Of a DNA stretch of 64,000 nucleotides, positions 3,929-62,254 are shown piece by piece. The notes beneath the pieces are model-generated. The model searched no databases and was not told the DNA's origin. It was given only the letters and a program-made list of their open reading frames with translations. Numbering within the stretch: position 1 is the stretch's first letter; the number at the start of each line of letters is the position of its first letter. Made by a program: the position numbers and the translations under genes. The stretch is from Xiphophorus maculatus (Eukaryota > Chordata > Actinopteri > Cyprinodontiformes > Poeciliidae): positions 1-64,000 of the forward strand of contig NC_036448.1 in NCBI RefSeq assembly GCF_002775205.1. The letters are read 5' to 3'.

Positions 3929-4302
3929 GTCGTGATTTCAGTTTCTCTGTGTGTTTATTTTGAGTTCCTGTGTCTCTGAGTCTCCGTGTTGTCCTGTCTC
4001 CTCTTGATTAGTTCCCAGGTGTGTCTCGTTCCCTGATTACCTCCTGTGTATTTAGTGTCACCTGTGTCTTTGTCGGGTCCTCGTCTCATTTGGCGTCTAG
4101 TCTCTGTCATCTGTGTGCCAGTCCGTCGTCTCATCCTTTGTGTTGTCGGTTGCTACCGGCGTCCCCTGGCTTCCGCTCGGGCGTGCTGCCCGGTATTCTG
4201 GACATCATTGGACTGTGAAATTCTGGATATTCATTATTAAAACCATCTTACTCGTCTCATCCCGGGCCTGCTGCGTTTCCCTCACCATCTTCCACCACCA
4301 CA
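3929..4302 (+). repeat. probable solo LTR or LTR-like retroelement tail
   Basis: This is a pyrimidine-rich segment (TGTCGTGATTTC to CCACCACCA) with a TATA-like GTGTATTTAGTG, a downstream ATTAAAA and a TG...CA outline, as in fish Gypsy-type LTRs. No target duplication is clear because the next repeat abuts it. It could instead be a LINE 3' tail. Confidence 0.35.
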
Positions 4303-4303
4303 T

Positions 4304-4625
4304 TGTAACGCTTGGGTTGTGTTTAAGGAAGGAGAGGAGGCGGCAGCCTCGCCAGGGCGATCAAAAATGCACAACCACACTGGTACTGGGAATTCCACAG
4401 TGTTGTCTTTTAATAAACACACTCTTCACCAACCTTACAAGCCCGGTTGAACGGCTGCTATATTATCAGACATGAAAATTAGCAGTCCAAACAACCCGTA
4501 ACATTACTAAAGAAAGCGAACACGTCCGTCTAGCACGTTTCCAAGTACGCAGTGGCGCATACATGTGACGTCATTAGCAATACTAGAGTATCTTAAAGAG
4601 ACACTACACAATTACGGCGGTTACA
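4304..4625 (+). repeat. LTR-like repeat, copy 1 (partner at 16254)
   Basis: It starts TGTAACGCTTGGGTTGTG and ends CGGTTACA, with an internal AATAAA near the middle, which suits a short solo LTR. It is colinear with 16254-16599; that partner is somewhat longer and has a GCGC duplication on both sides. No clear duplication flanks copy 1. Confidence 0.6.
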
Positions 4626-5020
4626 TCATGACAGTAACAACATTTCAGATGACAAACTAAAGCCATTTATAAATATATTTACAAGTAACCTTTCATGTAG
4701 TGATGTTACGTGATGTACCGAGGCTTCGAGGCGTGTGTCGAGTAATGGAGGGAGCGTTTCCGTAAAGCTCGTATCGAAGCTTGCTTCATTTAGGGGAGGA
4801 GCCGAAAACGATGACGTCGGAAGCCTCGCTGCCCTGCTGTACCACGTGACTGCTTCGGGAAGTGGCTCAGAGTTTGGCGCGGGGTTTGACAGCTTTAGAA
4901 ACCCCACAGGCTCCATTCAAAATGTGGGTTGTTGTAGGCGAGTTGCGGTCAGTTGAGAGAGTGGATAGAGTTTTGATAGTTTGGATAGCAGAGTTTGGAT
5001 AGTGGTTATTTACGTACGTA

Positions 5021-5074
5021 CGGACGGACGGACGGACGGACGGACGGACGGACGGATGGACGGATGGATAGATG

Positions 5075-5122
<48 letters not shown>
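5021..5122. repeat. compound microsatellite (CGGA)n-(TAGA)n
   Basis: About 10 CGGA units are followed by mixed GATG/GATA and a run of about 15 TAGA units. It lies inside the 4698-5880 hAT, upstream of the BED-finger start codon. Confidence 0.95.
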
Positions 5123-5123
<1 letters not shown>

Positions 5124-5158
5124 GAGATTTAGGAGCGCGAGGACAGGATAGGAGTAGG

Positions 5159-5356
5159 ATGGAGCCGACGAGAAAGAGGAGGATTTCCCTTATGTGGGAA
5201 CATTTTGATTTGATAAGCCCTAACAAGGTAGATGCAGATGCATTAGGTTTGCTTATGAGGAACTGTATTTTTCACTGTTTCTTAATTTCTGTAAAGGTGA
5301 GGTGTTTATTGTGCTCCAAGGAGTTGGGGTACAATAATAACACCTCATCCATGTAG
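5159..5356 (+). pseudogene. BED zinc-finger N-terminus of a hAT transposase (two exons)
   Basis: Exon 1 (from ATG 5159) reads MEPTRKRRISLMWEHFDL then ISPNK and meets a GT (AACAAG|GTAGAT, about 5228). The intervening part ends TCTGTAAAG (about 5296), after which the frame continues VRCLLCSKELGYNNNTSSM. Joined, this gives the BED pattern WEHF...CxxC, the DNA-binding module at the start of ZBED/hAT transposases. Translation stops right after NTSSM, before the His pair that completes the finger, so it is truncated. It could be read straight through or spliced. Confidence 0.65.
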
Positions 5357-5974
5357 TGTCAAAAAAGAGAAATCGTTTGAAACCAAAAACTGTGGAGAAA
5401 TTGTTGTTTCTTAATAAAAATGCATGAAATCATCCAAGTTACACAAGCATTAGCCTATTCACTACCCCCTCCCTAGTTCCACAAGCACTTTCACTGTCCT
5501 CTGCCTTATTAAGCCCATGTCATTTTTCTAGAGTCACAGAAAAACATTATTACACAACATGTCATATCACATGACACTACTATTTTGGGAATAATTACAC
5601 ACAGAGAATACATTCAAACAATATTTTATTATACACATATGTGTATACATAATTTATGTAGACAAATGATTTCATCCTACACCTTTTGTGAAGTCATTCC
5701 CAAGAGCCATAATAGACAAAAATTCAATGCATCACACGTGTTAAGATACAGCTGGCTGTGATTATACACCTGGCCAGTAGGTGGTTTCGTGTACACATGG
5801 AGCTTCAAGAAATGAACCCTTTCTCGAACCAGTTGGCTCAAGTGGTTCAATGCCCATGAGGCTTCATCTCACCATCACTACTTTCATGTAAACTGAAAAC
5901 ATTAAGTAATACAGCAGCTTAATGAAAGCCAGGTATGAAATAAATTAAATACATACTTACCAAAAGGGAGCAAT

Positions 5975-8010
5975 CTCATGCCGTGATATGAACTGTAAAG
6001 ACCCTCAACATGGTATTGAGTTATGTACTCTGTATGAGAATGTTGTGAAATCCCTTCTTATCTCAAGTAAGCCACTGCATAAAACCATCTTGCATAGCAC
6101 CAAGCCGGGTTGGAACGACTATGTAAAAGAACATCATGCAGAGGCCAGAAGGGCTTTTAAAGCATGGGCCGATGCAGGTAAACAGAGACATGGCCCCTTG
6201 TTTGAATACAAAAAACAAGCAAATGCTAATTTTAAACATTTTTTAAGATTCATAAGGAGACGTGAAAATACTATGAGGTCTGACTCTCTTGCTAGAAAGT
6301 TAGGAAATAATAATGTTAAGGACTTTTGGAAAGAAATAAAGAAAGTAAATAACTGTAAAACGTCACTTCCATCTACTATTGATGGTGTTACTGGTGTAAA
6401 AGAAATCACTCAGTTATGGAAAGAGCACTACAGTGCGCTGTTTAATTGTGTCAAAAGTGACATTTCTGACATAGGAAGCATTCACAGTAATGAGAATGTG
6501 ATTGTATCCCCACAAGAAATATATCATATAATTATGACACTGAAAGACAATAAGGCCTGTGGGATGGATAACATATCCACTGAGCATTTGAAAAATGCAA
6601 GTAAAAAACTCTGTGCATTACTTTCTATGTGTTTCACTGGCTGTCTAGTACATGGTCTGCTACCTAAATCAATGTTATCTGTCATTCTGGTACCCATTAT
6701 TAAAGACAAAGCGGGTAAGATTAGCTCCTTGGAGAATTACCGACCCATAGCTTTAGCTAGTAGTTTGTCGAAAGTTTTTGAAAGAGTCCTTCTAAATAGG
6801 CTGGAAGAGTTTCTTTTGACCTCTGATAATCAATTCGGTTTTAAACCCAAACATGGTACAGACATGTGTATTTTTGTGCTACAGGAGATTTTAGATTTGT
6901 ATAATTTGCGCAACACCACAGTATTTATGTGTTTTATTGATGCTTCTAAAGCATTTGATCGCGTGAATCATCAAAAATTGTTCTGCAAGTTAGAAAGCAG
7001 AGGTGTACCCAAATATCTAATTAGAATAATGGTCTATTGGTATGGTCATCAACTAATGTATGTCAAATGGGGTAACTCATTGTCTGACTCGTTTAATGTT
7101 GGTAACGGAGTAAGGCAGGGAAGTATATTGTCCCCTTACCTTTTTAACATCTATATGGATGAACTATCAAAGCGCCTGAATTGTTGTAAAACAGGCTGTG
7201 TAGTTGGTGACCGCACAATCAATCACATAATGTATGCGGATGATTTGGTAATCTTATGCCCATATAGTGCTGGCCTTCAACAATTACTAAGGGTCTGCTC
7301 CCAATATGGATGTGATTTTGATGTCAAATATAACGCTAAGAAAAGCAATGTCATGAAGTAGAGCAGATAAGCATCTGATAACCCCTGACTTCTCTTTATC
7401 TGGCATTGTCCTCAATATATGCAATGAAATTAAATATCTGGGACATTACATAACTGATGATCTATCTGATGATCGTGACATTTGTAGGCAGTATTGCATG
7501 ATGTATGCACAGGCTAATATTTTGATCAGAAAGTTTGGTATGTGTTCATCCTCTGTGAAGGTAGCTCTTTTTAAAGTTTTTTGTACTTCATTTTACACAG
7601 CCCATCTATGGCGAAGATATAAAAAAAAGTAGCCTGCACAAACTTTATGTGGCATACAATGATGGCCTGAGGCTCCTACTCAAAGTGCCTAGATGGAGCA
7701 GTGCCAGCCACATGTTTGCACATAACGCTGTTCCCACATGTGCAGCTGCGCTCAGGAATCTCATGTATAAATGTATGTGTAGATTACCCGTGTCAATAAT
7801 ATAATATAATATATAATATATAATAGCAATTTTAGTAAACCCTGTTTTTAGTACAGCGAGATTTTTCTCAAGATTGTGGAAACATTGGCGTCATCATTTA
7901 TTTGTGGCTCAGTGACTGTCATGTTTCTTTTTTGTTTTTTCTTTTCTTTTTGTTTTACTATGGACCTCTTTTGTGTCTGAAATAAAGATTGATTGATTGA
8001 TTGATTAAAT
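5975..8010 (+). mobile_element. 5'-truncated LINE with (GATT)n tail
   Basis: A reverse-transcriptase reading frame (5988-7361) is followed in another frame (about 7365-7800) by the usual C-terminal text (NEIKYLGHYITDDL, LHKLYVAYNDGLRLLLKVP). The 3' end has AATAAA followed by GATTGATTGATTGATT, a simple-repeat tail typical of several fish LINE clades. No endonuclease remains, so this is a 5'-truncated dead copy. Clade (Nimb/CR1/Rex1 group) is uncertain. Confidence 0.8.
5988..7361 (+). pseudogene. LINE reverse transcriptase domain, truncated
   Basis: The 457-residue open frame contains the RT blocks in order: NKACGMDNISTEHLKNA (about residue 190), LENYRPIALASSLSKVFER (about 250), NQFGFKPKHGTD, CFIDASKAFDRVNH (first catalytic Asp), NGVRQGSILSPYLFNIYMD, and the active site MYADDLV. 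The N-terminus lacks the endonuclease and the frame breaks after KKSNVMK. C-terminal LINE text continues downstream in another frame. It would have copied LINE RNA at the target site; this copy cannot be autonomous. Confidence 0.85.
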
Positions 8011-9461: not shown

Positions 9462-12400
9462 ATGTCTAAGAACACCGTTTCTGACCGCTTCAGGAAAGTA
9501 GATGTAGATGAATACGACGAAAACAAGTTTGTGGACGAGGAGGACGGCGGCGAGAACCAAGGAGGTCCAGACGAAGCAGAAGTGGAATCCCTTCTTAGAC
9601 AATATCCTTTGAGGTGATTTAACGACTTTGGTGGGGTTAACTGGGAGTGGTTAAAGCAATGAGGTGTCCCGCAGGAAGAAGCTCGGGTGTCCGTCAGCAT
9701 GTAACAGTGTTCAGTTTGTTAGACTTTTGTGAGGCGGTGTTTCCGGCTGAAAGGGACAAGAGGGTGTGGTTCCCGCACACTTCTACCACATTCTTTTACT
9801 ATTTTCTCAGCATGTTGTCCGTTGTTTCCGTTTGATTTAACATTCTCTGTGAAGTTGATAGATAAACTTTAGTTACAGAAAATAATTAAACAAGTTAACC
9901 TGTTCCTGCTCGGAATTCAATATACATATATATATATATATAAACAAACCCTTCAGACATTTTAGTCACTTTAAACAGGACGTGACAAAATTATTCAGGT
10001 GAGTAAACGGTTCTCATTCTGAGCTGATTGAATTTTGTTTACTGCAGCTTCATGACGTTCAAGAATAAGCTATGATGATCTTTACCATATAAGGTGATCA
10101 TCCTGTTCTACTTTGTTCCTCTCATGCTCCGGCTGGTGTATTTCTTGTCTCTGTGATTCTTGACTAATCCTTGCAAAGGGAACATGACTGGAGCTCTCCA
10201 TGCTGTACTGAAGAACCCTCCAATCAATACCAAGAACCAGAATGCTAAGGTATGAACATCTGACATGCCTCTGCTCCCCTTCTGTGATCACTTGTGTTTT
10301 GCCCTACAGCTGCCTGAACACGGAGCATGGTAGCACTGGTTAGGTCTTTGCTCTGCAGGATGAAGACACATCAGAGAAGATTTTAACAAACTGAACTCAT
10401 TTAGCACCTGCTCATAAATCAGAGGTGGCATCTGTGATACTGTGCACTCTGCTGTCTACCAGAGCAGTGATGTATTACAGGTCATCCACCTGACAAATGT
10501 GAAGCTCATAAATTTCAAAAAACTCTGAGCTTGATTCTTGTTCAAACAGAACATCTATGCATAACCTTAATGCTAGGTGGAACGCTGAGGAAAATCAGTG
10601 CTCTGTGCCATCTGTATCTAGACATCTATGAACAACTGGTATTGACAACTTGAGAAAAACATTATTCTTATGTCCTGGCATGGAATGAAGTCTCATTCAT
10701 TCCATGTAAGTTATAATCAAAACATGACATTTTTTATTTATTTATTTACATTTTTAATTTAACCCCACCCCCATTTGTAGTTAAATTTGGAATTTCAACT
10801 CCAAATGACCTTTAGTGTAAATATTTCAACTTAAGTAGTTTTCACCACATGTGAGCTCAAAATCCAACATGGCTGCTGTGCATATCAAACTTGATAGATG
10901 CCGTAAAAACACAGCTTTTAACTGTTATGTAATCTTTTTCTAACTGGCTGGTAATGCCTGCCTACCCCCCTCTCTGTCTGTGTGGCAGGAACGAGCGGAG
11001 TTGCTGGTGGTCAAAGTTCTTAGCAGTTTTAAGAGTAGTGACATAGAAAAAGCTGTGGGCTCACTGGACAAAGCAGGAGTAGACCTGCTGATGAAATACA
11101 TCTACAGAGGCTTTGAGAAACCATCTGACAACAGTAGCGCTGTCCTGCTGCAGTGGCATGAAAAGGTAAGGTGTGTGTATGTGTGTATATATCTCAACAC
11201 AGATTAGTATGGGAACTCGTAGATTCATTACATTAGAAGTCTATGGTATTCTGGAAGCCCAGGCATACAGTGCCTTGCGAAAGTATTCAGCCCCCTTGAA
11301 CTTTTGCCGCTTTTCAAACATAAAGATCTAAAAGTTTTATTGTGAAAAATCAACAATAAGTGGGACACAATTGTGAGGTGGAAAGAAATTTATTGGATAT
11401 TTAAGTGTTTTTTAGCAAGCTGTAATCGCAGCAAAAGGTGGCGCTACAAAGTATTAACACAAGGGGCTGAATAATATTGCACGCCCCCCCTTCGGCAAGG
11501 GGCCAAATATTATTCAGCCCCCTTGCGTTAGTACTCTGTAGCGCCACCTTTTGCTGTGATTACCGCTGCATGTCGCTTGGGGTATGTCTCTATTAGTTTT
11601 GCACATTGAAAGACTGAAATTTTTGCCCATTCTTCCTTGCAAAACAGCTGGAGCTCTGTGAGGTTGGAAGGAGAGCCCTTGTGAACAGCAGTTTTCAGCT
11701 CTTTCCACAGATTTTCGATTGCATTCAGGTCTGGACTTTGACTTGGCCATTCTAACACCAGGATTTGTTTATTGGTGAACCATTCCATTGTAGATTTTGC
11801 TTTATGTTTGGGATCATTGTCTTGTTGGAAGGTAAATCTCCATCCTAGTCAACAAGTTAATACTCACATTTCTTACATAAAAATTACAAGTTGGAATGTG
11901 AGAGGTCTTCGGAATCAAACTAAACTGAAACCGGTTATAAACAGGATTAAGCAACTTAAATCGAAGATAATTTTTCTTCAAGAAACACATTTAACAAATT
12001 GTGAGATAAAGTCTGTTAAAAATAGATGGCCGGTCCAGGTGATATATGCATCATATGATAATTATGCAAGAGGCGTAATTATTTTGATCCATAAAAGCAT
12101 ACCATTCCAAATTGTAAGAACAATAAAAGATTCAGCTGGTAGGTATGTAATTGTCCAGGGTAATATTTTCTCATTTACTTTAAATTTAGTGAGTTTATAT
12201 GGTCCAAATGAAAATAAGCCAACATTTTTTGAAGACCTGTTTCTTACTATATCTACTCTTAAAGGACTGTATGTAATTGGAGGAGATTTTAACTGCACTT
12301 TATACCCAAATATTGATCGATCAATTGGCCCAGATGCTTATAAAAAGCAAACTAGAAAATTAATAAGTCAATATATATTGGATATCAACTTGGTGGAAGT

Positions 12401-15400
12401 GTGGAGAGAACAAAATTCTGATAAAATAGAATTCTCTTGTCACTCGAGTATACACAAGTCCTGCTCACGTATAGACTATTTCCTTGTTTCAAGAGAACTT
12501 TTATCAATGATCAAACAATGTCAGTATGACAGCATAGTGATCAGTGATCATGCACCTATCTCACTGAATATTCACATAGAAAACTTGGTGCATAATTCAC
12601 CTTGTTGGCGGTTTCAAGCAAAATGGCTACAAGATCAAAATTTTGTCAGATTGATAGGGGAGAAGATAGATACTTATTTTGAATTAAATACGGGTCAGAC
12701 TTCCGCCTCAGTGAGATGGGAAGGATTCAAAGCATATATTCAAGGTGAAATTCTTAGCTATACAAGTACAAAAAACAAACAAAAGAAGCGAATGGAAATT
12801 TTGAATAAACAAATAAAATTCTTGGAATTAGACTTAAATACCAATGATGACCAAACAAAGCAGAGTAAATTGTTACATTTGAGAACTGAATATAATAAAT
12901 TATCTTATGAAGCAGCAGCAAAAAGTTTAATGTGGTTAAAAGAATCTTATTATGACCAAGGCGAGAAAGCTGGGAAATTATTGGCGTGGAGAATTAAGAA
13001 AATACAAAGTGAAAGAGCAATTAATAGTATAAAGACCCCTTCTGGTAGGGTAACAGTAGATCCAGCTGAAATTAACGATAGCTTTAGGCAATTTTATGTA
13101 AATCTATATAAATCGGAGTGCCACCACGCTTCGGAAGAACAAGATATGTTCTTAGATCAACTTCAGTTTCAGACACTTACAGAAGAGACAAAAAAGGAAT
13201 TGGATACAAATTTAACGATTGAAGAAATATCACAGGCCATACAAAGTATCAGCAGTGGTAAAGCTCCTGGGCCAGACTGTTTCCCTATTGAATTCTACAA
13301 AACCTTTAAAGAAAAACTTATAACCCCGCTCTTTAATATGTATGAAGAAGCATTTAGAAGTGAAGTTTTCCCACCTACTTTGAGACATGCAATGATCACA
13401 CTGATGTTAAAGGCTGGTAAACCCCCTGAGGAGTGCTCCTCATTTAGACCAATCAGTCTGATGGGGGTGGGCACTAAAATACTTTGCAAAGTTTTAGCAA
13501 ACAGACTGGACCCCTTTATCTCGTATTTAGTTCATAATGATCAAAATGGCTTTATACCAAAATGTCAAGGGTTTCACAATATAAGAAGAGTCCTAAATAT
13601 AATTCATGAGAAATTTGACGCTAAAGATACTGCTTTATTATCACTTGATGCCCATCAGCATAGAATAGAATTGATAGAATTGAATGGTCATATCTATTTA
13701 ACGTTCTTCCGAGGTATGGATTTGGTTGCAATTTCCTCAAATGGGTATAGTTTTTTTTGACAAGCTTGTCCATTAGCATCCCAAATTTAATGCAACAAAT
13801 AGAGTTGTTTGGTCAGTTTTCTGGCTACAAAATAAATGATTCAAAGTCCTCTATTCTATTTTTGAACAGGGATGAAAGACTGAACCCGGTTATACAAATC
13901 CCCTTTATCAATGCAAGAGAGGGATTTGTGTACCTTGGTGTTAAGATCACCTCAGACATTAAAACAATTGTATCAGCAAACTATGATCCTCTGGTCAGTG
14001 AAGTAAACGAGTCACTGAATAATAGGATGATGATGCCCATATCAATGATTGGGCGAATAAATGTGATTAAAATGAATATATTGCCAAAGTTTTTGTATCT
14101 TTTTCAGACAATTCCTTTGCCTCTTCCAAAACAATTTTTTGATGGTTTAAATGGTATTTTCAGTAGATTTATTTGGAATAATAAAAAACCTAGATTAAGA
14201 CTTCGCCTGTTGTACCTGCCATATGAGAGAGGGGGGTTGCAACTTCCTAACCTTAAATTGTATTATTGGTCCGCCCAGCTACGTTCAGCTATGTTTTACT
14301 TCTCAACCGAATCACCCCCAGCATGGATAAAAATTGAACAATTAATAACAAACCTTAGATTAAATCTGTATTTGTATTCCGCAAGACCAAAGCAACTGAT
14401 AAAAATGACAAAAAATCCCTTTCTGAAAAACACAATTGATGTTTGGTATAGGACCCATGAATATATTGGAGATACCCCTTCCATTTCCTCTTTCTCACCC
14501 ATCTGGGGGAACAGATATTTTAAGACAGGGACAGCTGATGGAGGTTTCAAAATCTGGGCAAATAAAGGTGTACAGAAACTGGCAGATCTTTATAAGGATG
14601 ACAGGCTTCTTACATTTGAGCAGTTATGCCAAATATATAGCATTCCAAAGAAACACTTTTATAAGTATTTACAAATTAAACATTTTATTATGTCAAAACA
14701 TAAAACGATTGAATCCAAACCACCACTATCATACCTAGAGAATATTGTGCTAGGAAATTTAGAGAGGAGAGGTCATATTTCTTTATTTTACATAGGTTTA
14801 CTAAGGCACAATGAGGAATCCACTGCAGATAAATTGGATGCATGGAGAGCTGACATCCGAGAGGAGATACAAGTAGCGGACTGGAATACTGCATGCGTAA
14901 AGGCCCAAAAGCAATCAATCAATACCAGCATGAAACTCCTTCAGTACAAGTGGTTGGTGAGAATTTACATAACTCCAGTCACATTGAACCACTGGGCACC
15001 TAACATCCCAGATATCTGCTGTAAATGTTTGGTTGGAAGGGGTACTCTCTTTCACTGTGTATGGGAGTGTCCAAAGTTACAACAATATTGGAACTTGGTT
15101 ACGCAAACTTTGTCAGAGATCGTTGGAGTGAATGTACCTGCTGAGGCCAAAATGTGTGTTTTGGGTATTTATTCAGAGAACTGTGTTTTTAACTCCAGAC
15201 AGTTAAAATTGGTCTTCATGATGCTCTCTGCGCTTTGAACACAACCCTGAGACTGTCACAGAGCAGGTGCATTTGTATAGGGACTTGATTACACACAGGT
15301 GCATTCTATTTATCATAATCAGTCATTTATGACAACATTGGATCATTCAGAGATCCTCACTGAACTTCTGGAGTGAGTTTGCTGCACTGAAAGTAAAGGT

Positions 15401-18120: not shown

Positions 18121-18610
18121 CATTTGAATACTGATTGGTCATTTATTGGTCATTAATCCCAATGACTTATAGGGTGGAGCTTTGAGTTTTGACACAAATG
18201 AGAAAAGAAATAGAACCTTTCCTTCATTGAATCTGTCACAAGAAAACCAAATCAGTACATAGTTGTGCAGAGGATGTTTTAACGTTTTATGTTGGACAGA
18301 TGGATAGTTTCTAATTAGCCCTGAGCAGCGAAAGCAATTCTAACAGCAATTGCCTAACAGCAATACAGCAAAGAATTTGTAGCTGTAGTGATGCTGGTAC
18401 ATTCACAAGGTCAATTGGTGACAGCACCTTAGTCCCACACCCTTTAAGCAGGAAGTCACATTTTGGTGCTGGGAATCATCATTCATACAGATGATTCTGT
18501 CTGATGACATACAACATGATGTTGAATTCTACTCTCAACACAGACTAGTGCCTGCAGCATGTGGGCATGGCAGAAGCCGAATTCTATGGAGTGAAAATAG
18601 TGTCAAAAAG

Positions 18611-18770
18611 ATTTGTGTGTGCGTAAAATGATTTGTGCGTGCGTAACAGGATTTGTGCGTGTGTAAAAAGATTTGTGCGTGCGTAACAGCATTTGTGCGT
18701 GTGTAAAAAGATTTGTGCGTGTGTAAAAAGATTTGTGCGTGTGTAAAAAGATTTGTGCGTGCGTAACAGG
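18611..18770 (+). repeat. subterminal 20-bp tandem repeat, left arm (8 units)
   Basis: Units follow ATTTGTGYGTGYGTAAMARG and stand directly head to tail. The right arm has five units (about 23170-23270). Such subterminal arrays often bind the transposase; that role is inference here. Confidence 0.9.
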
Positions 18771-19245
18771 ATTTGTAAACCTTAAAAATAAAATACATGT
18801 TGAAAAAGTACACACTAATCACCTGGTACGCACACACAAAACTGCAGTTACACACAAATCCGGTTACGAGTGCACAACTATTTTTGAGACTCATTTCACG
18901 CCTCGGTGGAAGCTCCAAGATTTGTGTGTAGATGGTGCGTTTACATGCTAGTAAAAGCTGGGACATCTGAGTTTTCTTCGGAACTGTTTCTTTTTTCCAT
19001 AGTTCAATACGTATTTCTCTCTTTACTTGTCTCGTGGCTTAGACATATTTTTGTGAGAGAAAAATACATACGTCATTACACCCACGTCTACTTTTTAATA
19101 CTATAAGATTGTTTATATATGAATCCGCATTTGGGACCTATACAACTGTAATTACTTGGGTAAAAAATTCGACCACTAGGTGGTGGAAGTTTATTCCGCT
19201 CTGACTGGGAAAAGCCTTCATTCAAACTGAGAGAAGAAACAAGAG

Positions 19246-19327
19246 AATGGCGGGTCAGCCCAGTGATCGTGTTCGTGGTCTACCGTCCGAAGTGGATGTG
19301 GTTATTCCGTCAGTTTGTCGAAGAAGG
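19246..19327 (+). CDS. leader exon in left inverted repeat (MAGQPSDRVRGLPSE...)
   Basis: ATG at 19246 opens MAGQPSDRVRGLPSEVDVV, and the frame then runs to a GAAG|GTAATG donor-like site. The first 15 codons are identical to the leader in the right arm on the other strand. The right arm has GAA|GTAAGT as donor; the left arm lacks 4 bp there (GAAGTGGATG), so the left leader reads further. This phase does not join directly to the HECT exon at 19949, so an exon is missing or unrecognised between them. Confidence 0.45.
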
Positions 19328-19948
19328 TAATGTGTCTGCATGAGCATTTTGACAGTATTTATATGTTATTTTGAAAATGACAAAAGACATGTGCATTACA
19401 TACCAGCATATTTCTGCTAATCATGTCTTACAACACAGCACAGATAAATTAGGTACATTAGCAGTATTCATATAAAGTAATTATTTGCATTTGGTGGAAA
19501 AAGGATGCAAAGCCCTTATTAGGTTTCCAAACAGTTTTGTATACCAGTTACAAAAAGACTATGTGGCTATAGAACAGACTTAAAGTAAAATGAGAAGTTG
19601 TCTGGTGTTTACGCTGCACCAAAAATACGATTCAGTTGTATTTGAGAAGGAATGCAATTCACAAAACACATCTTTGAGGACCTTCAACGAATAAATCACA
19701 TTATTATATAGATGCCACAGGAAACATGGTGTTTCTCTTAGTCTATGCTTTGACAGGAGGTCAATCAGTTAACAAGGTAAAAGGTATTCAAATGATTTTG
19801 ATTTTTTAATGATATCACATTTATATGGATCTGTTGCTTATATTTAAAATACTTTTGCCTAAATATCTCAAACGCGACTTTATGAATGATTCAGTTATAC
19901 AGAAAATTCCACATGTATCTAAAACAAATTAATTTATACTTTTCATAG

Positions 19949-20178
19949 CGTCTTTAGACAAACTGCGTGAGCTCCTGAGGTTTTGGGTTGGCTGGGAGGT
20001 CCCTTGCCAAGAGCTGAAGCTTGAAGTTGTCCTGTCAACTGGACCTAACCATATGCCGACGTCTTCAACCTGTAGTGAGCGATTACGGCTACCAAGTCAC
20101 TACACCACCTACCAGGCCCTGTCAGCCGACATGAATGTGTGTCTGAAATCAGTAGAGACAGGCTTTGGTCTTATTTGA
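19949..20178 (+). pseudogene. HECT-type E3 ubiquitin ligase C-terminal exon carried by the transposon
   Basis: After an AG acceptor (TTTCATAG) the frame reads SLDKLRELLRFWVGWEVP, then MPTSSTCSERLRLPSHYTTY and ends CLKSVETGFGLI with a stop. This matches the last ~75 residues of HECT domains as found in G2E3-like fish proteins: FWxGWE, the catalytic Cys in TSSTC, the LRLPxHYTTY block and the GFG ending. In a working HECT protein the Cys accepts ubiquitin from an E2. The rest of the HECT domain (about 270 residues) is not found, so this is probably a remnant of a larger cargo gene. Confidence 0.7.
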
Positions 20179-20594
20179 TAAATATGTATTGATGTTTCAT
20201 TTGTTGAAAAATTGCAGTTCGACATGGCAAGTCAGTTAAAATAGAAAGTAATTTTATTATTAGCCTTGCATTTTTTTTTTTTTTTTTACAAATAATGTCC
20301 ATCAACACAGTCTTGACATGAAGTTGTGTTCCTGAGGTGACTACTAAATGTTTGTCAGGCATCCCTGTTCATCATGTGGTTTTTTGCTGAAATATTCCAC
20401 AAATGTTTGGCATTCAAACATAAAATAATTTTCATGTTTCTGGTGTACATTAAACTTTATAAAGTTAACATTTTTGCCAGCTGGTTCTTTCTCTAGCTTG
20501 TACTTGCTTGTATATTTGTACATGTTTGATGGATTTTTTAAATAAATGGTATTGAAAATGCTGTTCATTACAAACATTTAAATTTAAGTGACAT

Positions 20595-21150
20595 CTAATT
20601 TGTCACAAGTAAAGTTTCCAAATATTGCAGAGTATCCATGTAAATGTCCATGCCACTAGACTCTGAAGGTTGTAGGGGGTCAATGTTTTCACGGAGAAGC
20701 TCCATCTGATCTTCTGTAAGTGGGCTGTCCAACTCTGGTACTCGCAATTCAGCATGTGGATCAGGAACAAGCCCACTTTCCTCCCAGTTTATATGGGGAA
20801 TCTGCAAAACATACATAGCATTATAGCTGGTGGAAAACATTTGTTGTTTCATTTGAAATAACAAAAAAAGACATTCAAGTACCTCTGGGTCAACCACTGA
20901 ATGGCCGATCTGTCCCAGTTCCCACAACTGATTTGGAGTGAGGTTTTGTTCAGTTCTCATTGGGTGATTGTCCCATCCTTGTTTAAATATGTCAAGATTC
21001 ACTTTCAAGCGAGGCAAGAAAACATAATGACAGCAAAACAAGCGAAGAGGATTGCTAAGATCCAAGAGGTTTTCCTCCTCCAGTTGGTGTAGAACATTGT
21101 AGAAAACACATGTGACTCCCATCCACAGATCACGCCACAACCTCTCTATC
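20595..21150 (-). pseudogene. integrase-core transposase, 3' exon
   Basis: An acceptor (TTCACACAG) precedes RIERLWRDLWMGVTCVFY, followed by LDLSNPLRLFCCHYVFLP, FKQGWDNHPMRTEQNLTPNQ LW and an acidic tail ending YLETLLVTN. This is the C-terminal part of the eukaryotic integrase-core proteins seen in fish and corals. The Glu in IERLW is likely the third catalytic residue. Both catalytic Asp residues should lie upstream (21151-22640), but I find no convincing exons for them there, so the gene is probably internally deleted. It converges on the HECT exon. Confidence 0.75.
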
Positions 21151-21378
21151 CTGTGTGAAAGCATATAAAATGTTACTTCTACACACACAGTTGTGGAAAA
21201 AGTGTTTCACCCCATTCTTATTTTGTAGTTTTACATAAGGTTCTTACACTCCAGTGTTAAATAATATCAAAGTAATTTAAAGATTAAAAAGCAAAAACAC
21301 CCCCCAAAAAATCAGTTCTTAACTGAAGTTGTTGGTTAAAGATGCAAGACAAAAATCCCATTTTATATGTAAAAAAAT

Positions 21379-21420
21379 TGCATGATGTGGGTGCACTCTC
21401 CCCTGCACCCACATCATGCA
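21379..21420. repeat. perfect hairpin, 17-bp arms, 8-nt loop
   Basis: TGCATGATGTGGGTGCA at 21379-21395 and its exact complement at 21404-21420. It lies inside the 18.6-23.3 kb transposon, upstream of the integrase exon. Confidence 0.9.
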
Positions 21421-22649
21421 GAGATCAGCGCCCCCAGTCACAACTGAGACGAGGTTGTTCACCTAGGAACACAGCCTCACACATAGGCTAGGATTGCATC
21501 TGTGTGACTGTCCCATTTCATCCGATGTCATAGTAACACTGAATTTCATAAGAAGAACCAACAAAGCCTCACAATTATTGCGACTTGAAAAATAAGACCA
21601 TGGCACTATCAAGCGAAAAATATTTATTTTCAAATTGTTCATATTGTTTAATTACTGTTTAGCAACATACCCACTGATCTTGTTGATCTCTCTCCATTTT
21701 CTTAAATGGAGAGAGCAAGTCCTTCAAAACAGATAAAAATGAATTAAAGAACAGTTTGTTAAAGTTGACCATTACACTGTCAATACAGTAATTTATCATA
21801 AGTTTGACATTATTAGCACTTTTTGGGGACAATAGAAATATAATTTCACTAGATGGCTACAATTACAATTTAGTTAATGTGAAGCACAACTTAACATATT
21901 ATCTGTCCAAAAATGTAAGTCATCACATGGAAGTAATGAGAAATGTGGTTTGCTCATAATGAAGTAACAGAAATATTAATATTTTAAAGATTCAGCCGAG
22001 TTACTACACTTATATTCAGCTGCTTACAAGTGGTTCAGTGTTGGATGAGGTTATATTTTCAAAATTTGAAATATTGATGATCTGCATGAAACTAATATAA
22101 AAAACGGTGCAGATGTATATGTATGGCATAGAATACATTTGTACATTTGTTAAGAGATGTTCTACGTATTTATTTCTGGTACGAAAGCAATGACCATCAT
22201 ATTCCAGGAAGAAATGTAGAGAAGAGTAAATCTTAAGTGATTACAGTAAGATATAAAATATATAGGTGATAGACGAAACATAAGTCTGTAGCAGAACAAA
22301 AAAAAAATTTAAATCAAAAACTACAATTAGTGAGGAGAACTGGGATGAATCCTTCAAATAATAAAAGACGTCACCTAAGCCTACATTATTGTCGGCATCA
22401 TAAAAATAGCTGAGCATGGTGATAAACGTAGACATAGCTGTAATGGGCCAGGAAGATACTGTTTTAAACTGGACCGATGCTAATCGAGGACTAATAGTAG
22501 CTTAGCTAACGTAGACATGAGCTATTGCTAACATAGAAGGGCGAGAACTTTGGGTCGAACTACTTGAAACGTAAAACGTAATCTGAAACAATCTAAAAAA
22601 TACGCATTACAACGGTCAGTAAAACGTGCAAATTTTAACATCCACTTAC

Positions 22650-22694
22650 TTCGGACGGTAGACCACGAACACGATCACTGGGCTGACCCGCCAT
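22650..22694 (-). CDS. leader exon in right inverted repeat (MAGQPSDRVRGLPSE)
   Basis: The 15-codon exon runs from ATG (22694-22692) to GAA|GTAAGT, a strong donor, in phase 0. It probably starts the transposase pre-mRNA that ends with the 20595-21150 exon. Because it is within the inverted repeat, the same leader occurs on the plus strand at 19246. Confidence 0.5.
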
Positions 22695-23302
22695 TCTCTT
22701 GTTTCTTCTCTCAGTTTGAATGAAGGCTTTTCCCAGTCAGAGCGGAATAAACTTCCACCACCTAGTGGTCGAATTTTTTACCCAAGTAATTACAGTTGTA
22801 TAGGTCCCAAATGCGGATTCATATATAAACAATCTTATAGTATTAAAAAGTAGACGTGGGTGTAATGACGTTTGTATTTTTCTCTCACAAAAATATGTCT
22901 AAGCCACGAGACAAGTAAAGAGAGAAATACGTATTGAACTATGGAAAAAAGAAACAGTTCCGAAGAAAACTCAGATGTCCCAGCTTTTACTAGCATGTAA
23001 ACGCACCATCTACACACAAATCTTGGAGCTTCCACCGAGGCGTGAAATGAGTCTCAAAAATAGTTGTGCACTCGTAACCGGATTTGTGTGTAACTGCAGT
23101 TTTGTGTGTGCGTACCAGGTGATTAGTGTGTACTTTTTCAACATGTATTTTATTTTTAAGGTTTACAAATCCTGTTACACACGCACAAATCCTGTTACGC
23201 ATGCACAAATCTTTTTACACATGCACAAATCTTTTTACACACGCACAAATCCTGTTACGCACACACAAATCTTTTTGACACTATTTTCACTCCATAGAAT
23301 TC

Positions 23303-31000: not shown

Positions 31001-34000
31001 TAGATCTGCAAGACAGCTCTGCCGTAGAGCAGAACGAAAATGGAGTAATACTCAACTTCACGTTCATTATGACATCTAGGCCTGTCACGATAGCAAATTT
31101 TGCTCAACGATTAATTGTCTCAAAAATTATTGCGATAAACGATAATATTGTTAGAAGACCTTTTTACACTGATTTAATGGAAATGACGTAATAATGCATG
31201 CGATTTCTTGCCAAAGATAGATACACTTTATTTTCAAAAGAACACTTAACACTTGAGCTGATAAACAAAATAAACAAAACAACCAAAAACAAAAATTAAA
31301 TGAATTCTCAGTCTCCATTAACAAAAACTCACTTGAAAAAAAACTTTTGTCTGTACTCAATACAGACCTTCTCATTGAATTCAATGAGAAGGTGCGTCCA
31401 AACTTTTGGTCTGTACTGTATGTACCGCCAGAGAGCGACAGGACTTTCTTAAAAACGTTCTTTGACACCATTATCTCATTTAGTGAAGGAGTTCTTGTTT
31501 GCGCTGGAGATTGGAACACAATCCTTAATTATGCTCTAGATACAACAAGCTATAAGAAACAAAAAACTGGTAGGTCAAAAGATTTAAATATCCTGATCCG
31601 GGAGATGGGCTTGTTTGATGTCTGGAGGGATCTCCATAATAAAGAAAGAGAATTTACTCATTACTCTCCTGCACACAAAGTCCACTCCAGGATCGATCTG
31701 TTTCTGATGAACACCATTGATAGATCTAAAGTGAAGGAATGCTTAATTGGAACATCTGATATTTCAGACCACAACATTATCTATTCATCCATCAGTTTGT
31801 CTAATAGGCCTAAAACAACATTATGGCGCTTAATATATAGGTATCCTTAATAATGAAACCACAACAAAGGAGATTAGAAAAGAAATAACGGAATGTGTAA
31901 AAGACAATAATAATGGGCAGGTAAATCCCACCTTAGTCTGGGACACGGTCAAAGCAGTAATGAGAGGGAGACTAATTTCTAGAACTGCTTATATTAAAAA
32001 AATAAAAAGATTAAAATACAATGAATTGGAAAAAACATTGAGGGAATTAGAATTAAAACAGCAAATGACTAACAATGGAGAATTTTCAGAACTAATAACA
32101 GAAACTAAAAACAATATAAATGATATGATACTCGAGGAACTTGAGGAAAAATTACGATTCTCCAAACAAACATTTTATGAATCAGGCCAAAAAGCTACAC
32201 GAATCTTAGCTAGGCAACTTCGTAAACACCAATTGAAGCATTCGATTACCAAAATTAGAGAATCCTCAACTGGTAACTTAACCTATGACATGGATAAAAT
32301 ACATAAGACCTTTGAAAATTATTTTTAAAACATTATACTCTACCCCAGAACCAGTTAAAATAACTGCTATTGACAATTATTTGGCAGCTTTGGACCTACC
32401 TTCGCTTGGATTAATCCAAAACGAAGCTTTATCTGCTCCCATTACCCATAAAGAATTAGATACAGTTATTGAACATTTGAAAAGTAATAAGTGCCCAGGT
32501 AGTGATGGGTTTCCAAATGAATGGTACAAGATGTTCAGGAAGGAGCTTTCCCCTGTCCTGCTTGAGTCTTTGAACTGGACATTGAGCAGAGCTGAGATCC
32601 CACCATCTTGGAGAGAGGCTATAATATCTGTCCTCACTAACTAAAGAAGGAACAAATGTTGAATACTGTGAATCATATCGCCCAATCTCAATTCTGAATG
32701 TCGATTATAAAATCTTTACATCAATAATTTCTCGGAGATTGGAGTATTACTTGTTAGATCTAATACACGAAGACCAGACGGGATTCATCAAAGGCCGACA
32801 AACTCAGGACAGCATAAGACGAACATTACATATATTAGATCAAGCCAAAAAGCAGGGCCTCAGCGTAGCATTAGTTAGCCTAGATGCAGAAAAAGCCTTT
32901 GATCGGGTCAACTGGACTTTTTTATATAGTGTACTAGAGCGTCTGGGCTTTAATAATCAGTTTATTAGTTGTTTGAGGTCACTTTATGATGAACCACGGG
33001 CCAGGGTAAAAATCAATGGGCACCTTACAAATAGCTTCCAATTACACAGAGGAACCCGCCATGGATGTTGTCCAAGTCCATCGCTTTTTGCAATATTCAT
33101 TGAACCCTTGGCACAGGCCATTAGAGAGGATGATGGGATAAAAGGTGTCAGCTTTGCAAATATAGAACACAAAATTGGCCTTCTTGCAGATGATATAATC
33201 ACATACCTCCAAAACCCAAATACAACTCTCCTCAAAGTTATGTCAGCGCTAACTGAGTTCGGTCAACTGTCAGGCTATAGTCTAAACATCACAAAAACAC
33301 AAGTTCTGACAATTAACTATTCCCCTAGTAAATCTATAAGAAAAACCTATGGACTTAAGTGGGATGCCAAAAAGCTAAAATACCTAGGAGTACTTATTTC
33401 CCGAGATTTGGATGAGTTATTTAGTTTGAACTTTGGTAATCTTACTGAAACCATAAAAAAAAGACTTGACAGCTTGGGCAAGGTTACTGCTGGATTTCAC
33501 GGCTAGGATGGAAATAGTGAGGATGAATCTGCCTCCTCGTTTTTTATATCTTTTCAAGTCATTGCCTATTAGAATATCTAGCGCACAGTTTCATGTCTGG
33601 GACAGGTTGATCTCAAGATTTATTTGGGCTGGGATAAGACCAAGGATAAAATTTTAAACACTCCAAATTAATAGGGACCAAGGGGATCTGGCCCTTCCAA
33701 ATTTGAGGGAATACTACACTGCCTGACCAAAAAAAAAGTCGCCACCAAAAAATGGTCACACTCTCTAATATTTTGTTGGACCGCCTTTAGCTTTGATTAC
33801 AGCCCGCATTCGCTGTGGCATTGTTTCAATAAGCTTCTGCAGTGTCACAAGATTTATTTCCATCCAGTGTTGCATTAATCTTTCACCAAGATCTTGTATT
33901 GATGATGGGAGAGTCTGACCACTGCGCAAAGCCTTCTCCAGCACATCCCAAAGATTCTCAATGGGGTTAAGGTCTGGACTCTGTGGTGACCAATCCATGT

Positions 34001-37000
34001 GTGAAAAAGATGTCTCATGCTCCCTGAACCACTCTTTCACAATGTGAGCCCGATGAATCCTGGCATTGTCATCTTGGAATATGCCCGTTCCATTTGGGAA
34101 GACAAAATCCATTGATGGAATAACCTGGTCATTCAGTATATTCAGGTAGTCAGCTGACCTCATTCTTTGGGCACACAATGTTGCTGAACCTAGACCTGAC
34201 CAACTGCAGCAACCCCAGATCATAGCACTGCCCCCACAGGCTTGTACAGTAGGCACTAGGCATGATGGGTGCATCACTTCACCTGCCTCTCTTCTTACCC
34301 TGATGCACCCATCACTCTGGAACAGGGTAAATCTGGACTCATCAGACCACATGACCCTCTTCCATTCCTCCAGAGTCCAATCTTTATGCTCCCTAGGAAA
34401 CTGAAGCCTTTTTTTCTGGTTAGCCTTACTGATTAGACGTTTTCTTACGGCTACACAGCTGTTCAATCCCAACCCCTTGAGTTCCCTTCGCATTGTGCGT
34501 GTGGAAATGCTTTTGAGTTCACAATTAAACATACTCCTGAGTTCTGCTGTTGTTTTTCTTCGATTTGATTTGACGAAACGTTTAAGTAATCGCCGATCAC
34601 GATCATTCAGGATTTTTTTCCAACCACATTTCTTCCTGGAAGACGATGGTTTCCCACCATCCTTCCAGTTTTTAATGATGCGTTGGACAGTTCTTAACCC
34701 AATTCTAGTAGTTTCTGCAATCTCCTTAGATGTTTTCTCTGCTTGATGCATGCCAATGATTTGACCCTTCTTAAACAGACTAACGTCTTTTCCACGACCA
34801 CAGGATGTGTCTTTTGCCATGGTTGTTTAAGAAATGAGGAGCTACTCATTGCATCAGCTGGGGTTAAATAACTTGTTGCCAGCTGAAAGATAATCGCCTA
34901 TGCAGTACTTATCCAATAGGAGGCTTGTACCTATTTGCTTAGTTAAATCCAGGTGGCGACTTTTCTTTTTGGCCAGGCAGTGTATTACGCATCTCAGATG
35001 AGAATTATGGTCTGCTGGTGCTCCTCAGAAATGAAGACTGGATGGAGACAGATTGAACTTAGGCAAGGTGGGGTCCAACACCAAACACGACTGAGAGATA
35101 AAATAGTTACAGACAAAAATGGGAATGGTATAGTTGAAGACACGTTGTTAATCTGGAAAGAGGTACAAATTGGCAGATGTCAATGGACTCCTGATGTGGC
35201 CCTTCTGTAACTCAAACTTTCGGCCAGGAGAATGAGATTTCTCTTTTTTAGGCTGGAAAGATAGAGGACTTGTGGCTTTGTGCCAGTTTGTTGAAGGGAA
35301 CACCTTTAAAACATTTGAGCAAATGAAAAGGGGTTATAATCTTGAGAACAGAGATTTATTTAAATATTTTCAGGTAAGACATTTTTACAATACTAAAATA
35401 AAAAAAAGTGTTCCTCCAGAAGGTAATACTATTTTAACATTTTTTACAAATGCTTATACTCACCCCCATGTAAAACTGTTTCTAAACTATATAAAGGGTT
35501 GCAGAAAGATAATGGAAATAACACCTTGAATATTAAGTCTAAATGGGAAAGTGAATTGGGAGTAAAAGTTACAGAGGGTGATTGGCTTTCAATCAACAGA
35601 CATCTACAACAACAGACATCTACCAGTTCTAAAAGATGGAAGGAATTTGGATGGAAGTGCTTAATTAGATACTTTATTACACCTCAAATTACTAGTAGAC
35701 ATAGAGGAGAAGAACAGCAATGTTGGAGACAATGTGGCCATCAGAACGTCAATCACTCTCATGTATTTTGGTCCTGCCCAAAGTTGGCACCTTACTGGGA
35801 TGGAATCTGTCAGACTACCGGGATAATTTTGGGGTATGTCATCCCCAAAGACCCCAAAATTTTTCTGCTGGGGCTGATATCTGGAGAAGTATTTCAAAAA
35901 GAAGATGAGTATCTTTTTAAAGTTCTATCAATTGCAAGCAAAAAAGCTATTACACGCTCTTGGCTAAAGAAACTCCCTCCCCAGCTAGACCATTGGCGGG
36001 AAGTCGTGGAGGAGATTCACTCAATGGAAAAACTGACATATCTTTTACATATAAAAGGACACTCTTACAACAAACGCTGGTCAAATGGCTGTCATACAAG
36101 AACAAGGAAGCATAAATAGATGTAACATCTTGTAATTTTTTTGTTTTTAAATTTATATATGTATCAGTGCCCCAAGTTCTGTGTGTGTTTTATGTTTCAT
36201 TGTAATGAAAAATGTTAAATAAAGAGTATACTTTTTTTTTTTTTTTTTAAATCGGCTGATCACCAATTTCTCAAAATTAAGGAAATTGGCACCGATAAAT
36301 CGGCTGGCCGATATATCGGTGTACCCCCAGTTCTGAGTGATGTTCTCTGATGAAAGTCAATTCACACTGAGCTGAAATGATGGCCGCCAATGATGTTGGA
36401 GACGTCAAGGAGAATGATGTGCATCAGCCACCCTTGGTGGGCAGGTGAGTCTAGTCAATACAGACCTGACTTGCACTCTGAATAGCACAATGCCTCAGTG
36501 TTCTAGTCCCTGACCCTCAGTTAGTATGGTAAATATTAAAAGTTAGTATGACAGTGACAGAAAAAGACTGAAAGTAGGTCTGACTTATTGGGAATGGTAG
36601 CCAGGGAACAGACATTTCTCTCTATAAATAACATGGAGGTGGTGTTTGTGAACATCAAAGACATCTTAAAAAGCACAATAAACACAAGACAAGCCATTAG
36701 AAGATAAAGAAGATGGGCCTACTTCAGTATTAAAGAACAAGCAGGAGGCTCAGATAAGAACTGCTGTATCTATATTTCAAAAGTAGAAATGTAGATACAG
36801 TAGTTTAAACCAGGACATGAACGTAGCCGCCCTAAAAAAAACAAAACAAAAAAAAAACTTACCCAGATCTCAAAGCTGTGATGATACAATCAGCGCAGAA
36901 GCGGTGCAGACATTCTTTGGTTGTCATCGTGTTTTTCAACATGTCCAGACAGATAGGACACATAAGTTCACTGTGTAAGGACCTGGGTGACACAGCTATC

Positions 37001-60858: not shown

Positions 60859-61384
60859 CTGCGAAAACAATAAAACACACCAAGTCAACAAGGGAGCAAG
60901 TATCCTGGTTTTTATTCTTGAGTACAATTACAATTAATTACAAAGCTGTTCGTTTTATGCTTCAGTTTATTCAATAAGCTGGCTGTTAAATTGATTATTA
61001 AAAAAAATCCACCAACATTTCCAAACAAACAAGGAAGATGCATTTACTGCATTCTAAAACAAATGTTTTACGGTCAAGAAGTGTCATATTTGATAATTGT
61101 ATATTACATATTGTAAATTGTATTGCTTTATGAAAAATTAATTGCTAAATGGTCTTGGTTATGAATTAGTTGTTTATTAAATGAACCTCAGAATTTTTCT
61201 AAAACCAGATGAACTCCGTGGATGGATCAGTATAAAATAGGTTCCCTCACTGCTAGTTCAATGTAAGCAACAAGAAAGGGCAGGAGAACCTGGAAAAATA
61301 AATGCATAATTGTGAACAAGTTTTCATTGTGTTTTAACTTAAAAATTTTTAAAAACTACATCATGATAGGCTTATATTTCCACT

Positions 61385-62254
61385 ATTTTGGAGTTTCTTC
61401 GGTCTCTCCTTGATAAGGGCAACTCTCCTTCGACGCTTAAGGTATATGTGGCGGCTATATCATCTAGTCATGCTGACATTGATGGATGTACACTGGGAAG
61501 CCACAATCTGGTTTCCTTTTTTGCATGGTGCTTGTAGACTGCACCTGCCAATGGTTACGCGAGCACCAGTTTGGGACCTGTCTTTGGTCGTCGGTACTCT
61601 GTGCCACCCTCCATTTGATCCTTTGGTTCAGCCAGACCTCAAATGGTTGTCATGCAAGACTGCTTTTTTGTTGGCTATTGTCTCAGCTAAGAGGGTCAGT
61701 GAGCTACATGCTCTTTCTGTCAGCCCATCATGTCTCAGATGGAGTTCAGATGGCTCTGGAGTTACCTTGTGGTCAAACCCGGCGTTTGTCCCTAGAGTGT
61801 TTTCTCATTCTCATTGAAACTGAGATTGGCGCGTTTTCAGCCTACGCCAGGGGAAGCTGGTGATAGTTCTGAGTCACTGTGCCCAGTGAGGGTACTGGAG
61901 GCACATATTGCAGCCACTGCTGCTATAAGACGCTCAGACCAGCTGTTGTGTTATGGGGGCCCTAGATTAGGTTGTCCTCTGTCCAAACAGCGTCTCTCCC
62001 ATTGGATTGTGGATGTCATCTGCCACGCCTACCCTGCAGGGCGCTGCCCCCAGCCAGTCGGTGTGAAGGCACACTCTACCAGGAGCGTTTCCACTTCCAG
62101 GTCAGCCTTGAGAGGAGTTCCACTGGAAGCTCTATGTGCTGCTGCATCATGGGCTTCTCTGGGCACGTTCACTAGATTTTACAATGTGAATGTGGCCTCC
62201 TCCCATCCTCTGGACCAGGTCCTTTTACAAGGGTCCTCTGGGCCTTCTCAGTGA
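61385..62254 (+). pseudogene. DIRS tyrosine recombinase, frameshifted
   Basis: Three frames join the domain: FLRSLLDKGNSPSTLKVYVA A (about 61390-61550), then VTRAPVWDLSLVVGTLCHPP and SAKRVSELHALSVSPSCLRW (first Arg), then after about 61815 LSHWIVDVICHAYPAG, VGVKAHSTRSVSTSRSAL (HxxR) and FTRFYNVNVAS (nucleophile Tyr). The R-HxxR-Y set is intact, but at least two frameshifts separate it. DIRS elements use this recombinase to integrate circular DNA; this copy is dead. Confidence 0.82.

Follow-up and report, generated by a model that had tools for sequence, protein, structure and literature searches.

Do the two ends of a DNA transposon supply the first coding exons of the genes that lie between them? 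Transposon ends normally serve as transposase binding sites, and sometimes as promoters. The question is raised by an element in the genome of the fish Xiphophorus maculatus. The window (the whole stretch analysed: 64,000 nucleotides, positions 1 to 64,000 of the forward strand of NC_036448.1) contains, at 18585-23296, a 4,712-bp element with long, nearly identical inverted arms. Each arm carries a short leader that begins with ATG. An earlier note on this DNA had proposed that these terminal inverted repeats (TIRs) act as twin first exons, one for a transposase gene and one for a convergent HECT-domain gene. We found that relatives of the element support this proposal, with open frames and phase-0 joins. 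Judged from these sequence comparisons, it is likely that the TIR is a portable module of promoter, start codon and splice donor that serves both convergent genes.

A full-length relative on C6

Copies were sought in the 704-Mb genome that contains the window (101 contigs). With the window transposase exons as query, we found a relative family at 65% identity, and one copy (G000:C6:7421697-7434838) was read whole. It is 13,142 bp long, its TIRs (1,062 bp) are 100% identical, and it is flanked by a target-site duplication (TSD), CTCGTT. Its termini, like those of the window element, are TATGG..CCATA. TSDs differ among three relatives, this copy included: CTCGTT and TGTGTT are exact, and CCTGAC has an additional C.

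The C6 copy contains two open gene models, drawn by hand: a transposase of 7 exons (480 amino acids) and, on the opposite strand, a HECT gene of 15 exons (692 amino acids). All modelled introns are GT..AG. The Pfam profile rva_4 matched the transposase over 2-183 of its 194 positions (E 2e-73), and HECT matched the 692-amino-acid protein over 35-305 of 306 (E 1.7e-12), with a TC motif in the last exon. HTH_21 scored 25.0 bits on the transposase, under the cut-off of 28.1. Comparison of the HECT protein with PDB sequences gave nothing convincing (best E 0.71). The earlier note had named full-length relatives without the HECT gene or without the leader as evidence that would tell against twin first exons; the one relative read whole has both.

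Other members of the C6 family are shorter. In three derivatives of 4.4-4.5 kb (C20:16891676-16896086, C13:22034168-22038650 and C23:30312877-30317318), one TIR adjoins a match to the last HECT exon, and the other adjoins a match to transposase exon 2. Their internal deletions are shaped unlike that of the window element, and the TIRs are again spared. Five C6-family fragments of transposase exon 2 lie on one strand at C11:12154972-12196360; the first three intervals are ~10.9 kb and the last is 8.2 kb, a pattern suggestive of tandem duplication.

The leader as a probable start exon

Each C6 TIR carries a leader, GGCGACC-ATG-GAG..ACG/GTGAGT (slash at the donor), that lies 521 bp from the element end and encodes MEANANPT. 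The leader donor and the exon-2 acceptors of both genes are all phase 0, and the acceptors follow pyrimidine-rich tracts. Met is absent from HECT exon 2, and in transposase exon 2 it first occurs at codon 22. In the window family, the leader joined in silico to HECT exon 2 and exon 4 was open across both joins in 3/3 places; these 5' exons were taken from L009, L016 and L018 (C21, C47), which are possibly duplicates of one another. All three gene starts compared for phase (C6 transposase, C6 HECT and window-family HECT) fit the leader.

We scanned both strands for start exons, defined as [AG]nnATGG with an open frame no shorter than 15 nt and a phase-0 GTRAGT. The C6 element gave exactly two matches, its two TIR leaders. 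Among Markov-simulated TIRs, 19/2000 (C6) and 34/2000 (window) contained a match.

The leader was kept in all of the C6-family arms examined (10/10, out of 43 arm matches). Six arms, from three near-identical elements, encode MEANANPT and four encode MEATANPT, one of them with an in-frame 3-nt insertion. A blastn comparison of the window element with the C6 copy gave one match in transposase exon 6 and two at chance level (E 0.06 and 0.8); there was no match between the TIRs of the two families. Despite these dissimilar TIRs, in both families the TIR holds a strong-context ATG from which a short open exon leads to a donor. The two leader peptides, MAGQPSDRVRGLPSE (window) and MEANANPT (C6), are unrelated.

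We propose the following arrangement for the fuller relatives. Each long TIR would combine a presumed promoter with a short coding exon, which has its start codon in strong context and ends at a 5' splice site; the opening segment of intron 1 would come next. Transcripts begun in the left TIR and in the right one would feed the convergent DDE transposase and HECT-domain genes, and splicing from the TIR exon would supply each with its start codon. The TIR would be a promoter-plus-start module used twice and held identical by the need for matching ends. Firing of the TIR promoters, splicing along the modelled introns and production of both proteins are inferences. At a guess, the HECT protein might ubiquitylate the transposase itself, or host factors that act in silencing or repair. 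If the proposal is right, this is a DNA transposon whose ends provide two different genes with their coding starts. Co-expression of transposase and cargo, and likewise cargo capture, would then follow a simple rule, which would also explain why derivatives with internal deletions retain spliceable ends.

Base composition gives a hint of the putative TIR promoter. The observed/expected CpG ratio near the leader was 1.17 (C6) and 0.93 (window), and in the interior 0.39 and 0.42. In a sliding scan, CpG was high across the middle of both C6 TIRs.

The leader might instead belong to the transposase only and have been copied to the other end as a by-product of TIR expansion, with the HECT gene starting elsewhere. 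In two copies, L019 and one on C21 (L009/L010), both arms carry transposase-side sequence, as expected from copying of ends, and HECT exon 2 of the window family carries an in-frame ATG of its own (NMAHAL). However, exon 2 of the 692-amino-acid model has no such codon and its acceptor is phase-matched to the TIR donor, the same fit recurs in the second family, and the scan of the 13-kb relative found no further ATG and donor of the leader form. We regard end copying as an improbable account of the leader.

The ATG in window-family HECT exon 2 is one of several points that weigh against a shared start module. An in-frame ATG lies ~10 codons upstream of the C6 transposase exon-2 acceptor, in the pyrimidine tract (open reading frame 4491-5240), which could permit a start without splicing. 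Another first exon could be hidden in the roughly 1 kb that separates the right TIR from HECT exon 2. The first C6 HECT model lost frame at exon 11, and an alternative GT donor was chosen to keep it; the donor of HECT exon 2, GTTCAA, is weak. The scan motif was picked post hoc, with the leaders already seen. It matches the right leaders of the window and C21 elements and misses the left ones, because the donor has been lost in the window and the -3 base is T on C21. CpG is 0 in the outermost 300 bp of the C6 copy and is also high in its interior at ~4201-4900, 10101-10500 and 11601-12200. Finally, the window-family transposase exon 2, sought intact in the C19 copy (L011, below), is degraded there.

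Is the leader translated? The TIR exon could be a 5' untranslated exon with an unused ATG, translation beginning downstream. Alignments to transposase exon 2 that reach its start (25 places) begin at residue 9 in 24 cases and at residue 8 in one, and none begins earlier. This shows no more than that leader and exon 2 are not contiguous, and is equally expected if the leader is untranslated. The wholly different peptides of the two families, and replacement changes in decayed copies, also fit a non-coding leader. On the other side are the strong start context, the three exon-2 acceptors that the leader enters with an open phase-0 frame, and the 3-nt insertion in one C6-family arm, which keeps the frame. 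We think an untranslated leader unlikely.

The earlier note had further suggested that a shared N-terminus could serve co-targeting or mixed complexes. Both proteins of one element would indeed share their first 8 or 15 residues, and a tag that sends them to one place or complex is compatible with a start module, which does not require it. The tag is very short, and it is not conserved between the families. Since the peptide varies freely while the place, phase and start context of the leader persist, a shared tag is unlikely to be the point; our results do not support this suggestion, and we give it very little weight.

The window copy and its kin

Apart from the corrections given below, the anatomy of the window element is as the earlier note had described it (Table 1). 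Both termini read TATGG inward. The arms align without gaps over 629 nt (18665-19293 vs 22648-23276) and are 99% complementary; eight of the 9/629 mismatches lie inside a 20-bp repeat array and one outside. The outermost 48 nt of the two ends are identical, with the flanking GAATTC counted in. Because GAATTC is palindromic, the length of the TSD is ambiguous in this copy. The leader, which the earlier note gave as ATG plus 15 codons, has 15 codons with the ATG counted in; it is identical in the two arms, and the clean GTAAGT donor reported after the right-arm leader is present. The 20-bp units (consensus AAAAAGATTTGTGCGTGCGT), which are more numerous in some other arms (e.g., L014), are possible candidates for transposase binding sites. 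We dropped an attempt to date the copy by arm divergence, as the arms were perhaps not identical at insertion.

Table 1. Positions of ends, leaders and gene remnants of the transposon in the window
Feature	Position	Strand	Remarks
Left TSD	18579..18584	.	GAATTC; 6-bp duplications also in relatives
Left TIR	18585..19293	+	starts TATGG
Left subterminal array	18605..18776	+	20-bp units, 8.6 copies
Left leader	19247..19291	+	MAGQPSDRVRGLPSE, 15 codons
Remnant of HECT exon 14 tail	19292..19326	+	fused directly to leader; donor GTAATG at 19327
Last HECT exon	19949..20178	+	contains TC motif
Last transposase exon (exon 7)	20595..20803	-	
Transposase exon 6	20881..21150	-	contains IERLWRD
Right TIR	22648..23296	-	ends CCATA
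Right leader	22650..22694	-	MAGQPSDRVRGLPSE; donor GTAAGT at 22649-22644
Right subterminal array	23165..23281	-	20-bp units, ~5-6 copies
Right TSD	23297..23302	.	GAATTC

We found that the two genes are present only as remnants. The integrase-core profile rva_4 (PF24764) matched in 20595-21206 on the - strand (E 1.5e-26) and a HECT C-terminus in 19933-20178 on the + strand (E 1.6e-8), so the two genes are convergent. The TC motif in the last HECT exon presumably marks the position of the catalytic Cys of HECT ligases, and we take IERLWRD in transposase exon 6 to hold the E of the DDE triad. The earlier note had read 20595-21150 as one integrase-core exon. The integrase identity holds; comparison with the full-length relative divides the region into two exons with a 77-bp intron. 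The note had also read the left leader as heading towards a HECT C-terminus. The C-terminus is there, and the TIR-type donor is not: the leader runs straight into the exon 14 tail. In the HECT frame this tail (WMWLFRQFVEEG) resembles, by eye, the end of exon 14 in the C6 relative (GYLKQFIANG).

Neither leader continues into a usable frame. Compared with the full-length relative, the HECT gene is missing exons 2-13 and most of 14. The left leader spliced to 19949 falls outside the HECT frame and reaches a stop after 33 amino acids, because the fused exon has a phase-2 end and the last HECT exon needs phase 1. Transposase exons 2-5 are also absent; the right leader (phase 0) is out of frame with exon 6 (phase 2) and, read into it, runs straight into a stop. 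By its sequence, then, both genes are dead in the window copy, and the idea that it makes transposase or HECT protein was not upheld. Our best reading places the element in an IS3EU-type DNA transposon lineage, as a non-autonomous member with two deletions.

The left arm of the window element has at least 70 matches in the genome (40 of 101 candidates scored), and 20 stretches with such matches were fetched for comparison. The arm continued into the transposase-side sequence of the window in 14/20. By ungapped matching with up to 8 mismatches, which copies with insertions or deletions would escape, the leader was present in 16/20; it was followed by GTAAGT in 15, and only L011 (C19:27747952) had the fused HECT tail. 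L011 was also the one stretch with the left-hand type of the window and a HECT exon. It has the same left deletion as the window and retains part of transposase exon 2 plus exons 3-7, so the left deletion is common to two copies.

The copies with both arms of the transposase-side type differ in size: L019 (C2:491787-493998) is 2.2 kb, and the copy on C21 (L009/L010, C21:19129540-19142018) is 12.5 kb with TIRs of ~955 bp. The C21 copy carries a Ty3/gypsy-like insertion (H2C2 and rve domains; ~800-bp direct repeats, 94%). We rejected it as an intact member, given the insertion and the lack of any convincing match to the window HECT or transposase exons.

Transposase and HECT genes recur together elsewhere in the genome. 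With the window transposase exons as query, 20 separate rva_4 places were listed, six with a HECT match nearby (the window, C19, C6 twice, C7:6705796 and C2:25094552). The full transposase as query gave nine further places that pair with HECT over 5 kb or less (C7:28525995, C7:941730, C15, C20, C23, C5, C16:5025122 and two on C13). Gene order was convergent in 15/15 paired places (within 5 kb, paired by hand from match lists). At C2:25094552 (L053), HECT and transposase fragments lie tail to tail, and no TIRs were found in 10 kb. C6-family fragments and distant relatives (38-44% identity) are among the rva_4 places that lack a HECT match. Two of six distant places, C21:1041897 (L036) and C7:332612 (L054), were read as candidates for a third intact family and rejected as decayed; no HECT gene was found in the stretches read (10 kb and 5 kb), and no TIRs in L036. 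Given these unpaired relatives, we treat the pairing as a feature of the present clade and do not extend it to all IS3EU elements. Pattern scans of viral and prokaryotic contigs gave no confirmed relative of exon 6.

Other open frames in the window were classed by eye. Long frames at 11742-15238, 31257-33506 and 5949-7361 resemble the endonuclease/reverse transcriptase of long interspersed nuclear elements, a 353-amino-acid frame at 33765-34826 (-) has the appearance of a Tc1-like transposase, and frames at 61353-62254 (+) resemble a DIRS/Crypton-type tyrosine recombinase.

Comparison with known systems

The nearest precedent is maize MuDR. We know of no shared coding first exon in its TIRs. 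MuDR has convergent genes, mudrA and mudrB, with TIR promoters and transcription starts in or just inside the TIRs, according to the accessible portions of PMC3440606. The present elements likewise have two convergent genes, with TIR promoters that are putative here. MuDR TIRs are ~215 bp, in contrast to 1,062 bp in the C6 copy, and the accessible text of PMC3440606 does not describe a shared coding first exon in them. A description of a shared coding TIR exon was likewise not found among the publications listed in searches of the open-licence literature. The C6 transposase matched no Mutator family among the 13 Pfam families listed at E up to 0.1, and by this comparison it is not of the MURA type.

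The ubiquitin ligase G2E3 has PHD/RING-like N-terminal fingers. On the 692-amino-acid HECT protein, Pfam gave HECT alone at E up to 0.1, a search that divergent G2E3-type fingers could escape. Repeat candidates in hybrid Cottus fish matched G2E3, among others (accessible part of PMC5638112), and may represent related cargo.

The window element fits IS3EU in its ends and flanks. Termini in IS3EU are TA..TA and TSDs are usually 6 bp long (PMC10045372), and fungal members have termini TAYGG..CCRTA and TIRs given just as >30 bp (PMC12730594), both sources as far as accessible. The window and C6 elements resemble the IS3EU / GingerRoot superfamily in their 6-bp TSDs and in TATGG..CCATA, which falls within the fungal consensus. 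The IS3EU / GingerRoot transposase is an IS3-like DDE enzyme; ours matches the rva_4 profile, with HTH_21 below its cut-off. Unlike fungal IS3EU with TET/JBP and alpha-kinase cargo, the second gene here is a HECT-domain gene, and it has a phase-matched TIR start exon in common with the transposase. HECT does not occur in PMC10045372 or PMC12730594, and the accessible portions of both mention no such exon. No publication pairing IS3EU with HECT was found in the open-licence literature, which leaves Repbase Reports outside, and a database entry may exist.

A TIR start exon might also make these elements plug-in vehicles for captured gene fragments: any fragment with a phase-0 acceptor beside an end would acquire promoter, start codon and donor in a single step. 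We hold this extension to be doubtful. If true, plug-in ends could account for the unrelated enzyme cargo of IS3EU elements (HECT; fungal alpha-kinase and TET/JBP). In fungal TET+ families the transposase and alpha-kinase genes are oppositely oriented, and fungal elements with TET/JBP and alpha-kinase genes likewise carry enzyme cargo beside the transposase (accessible text of PMC12730594). As far as the open-licence literature shows, our results add a HECT ubiquitin-ligase-like gene to that cargo.

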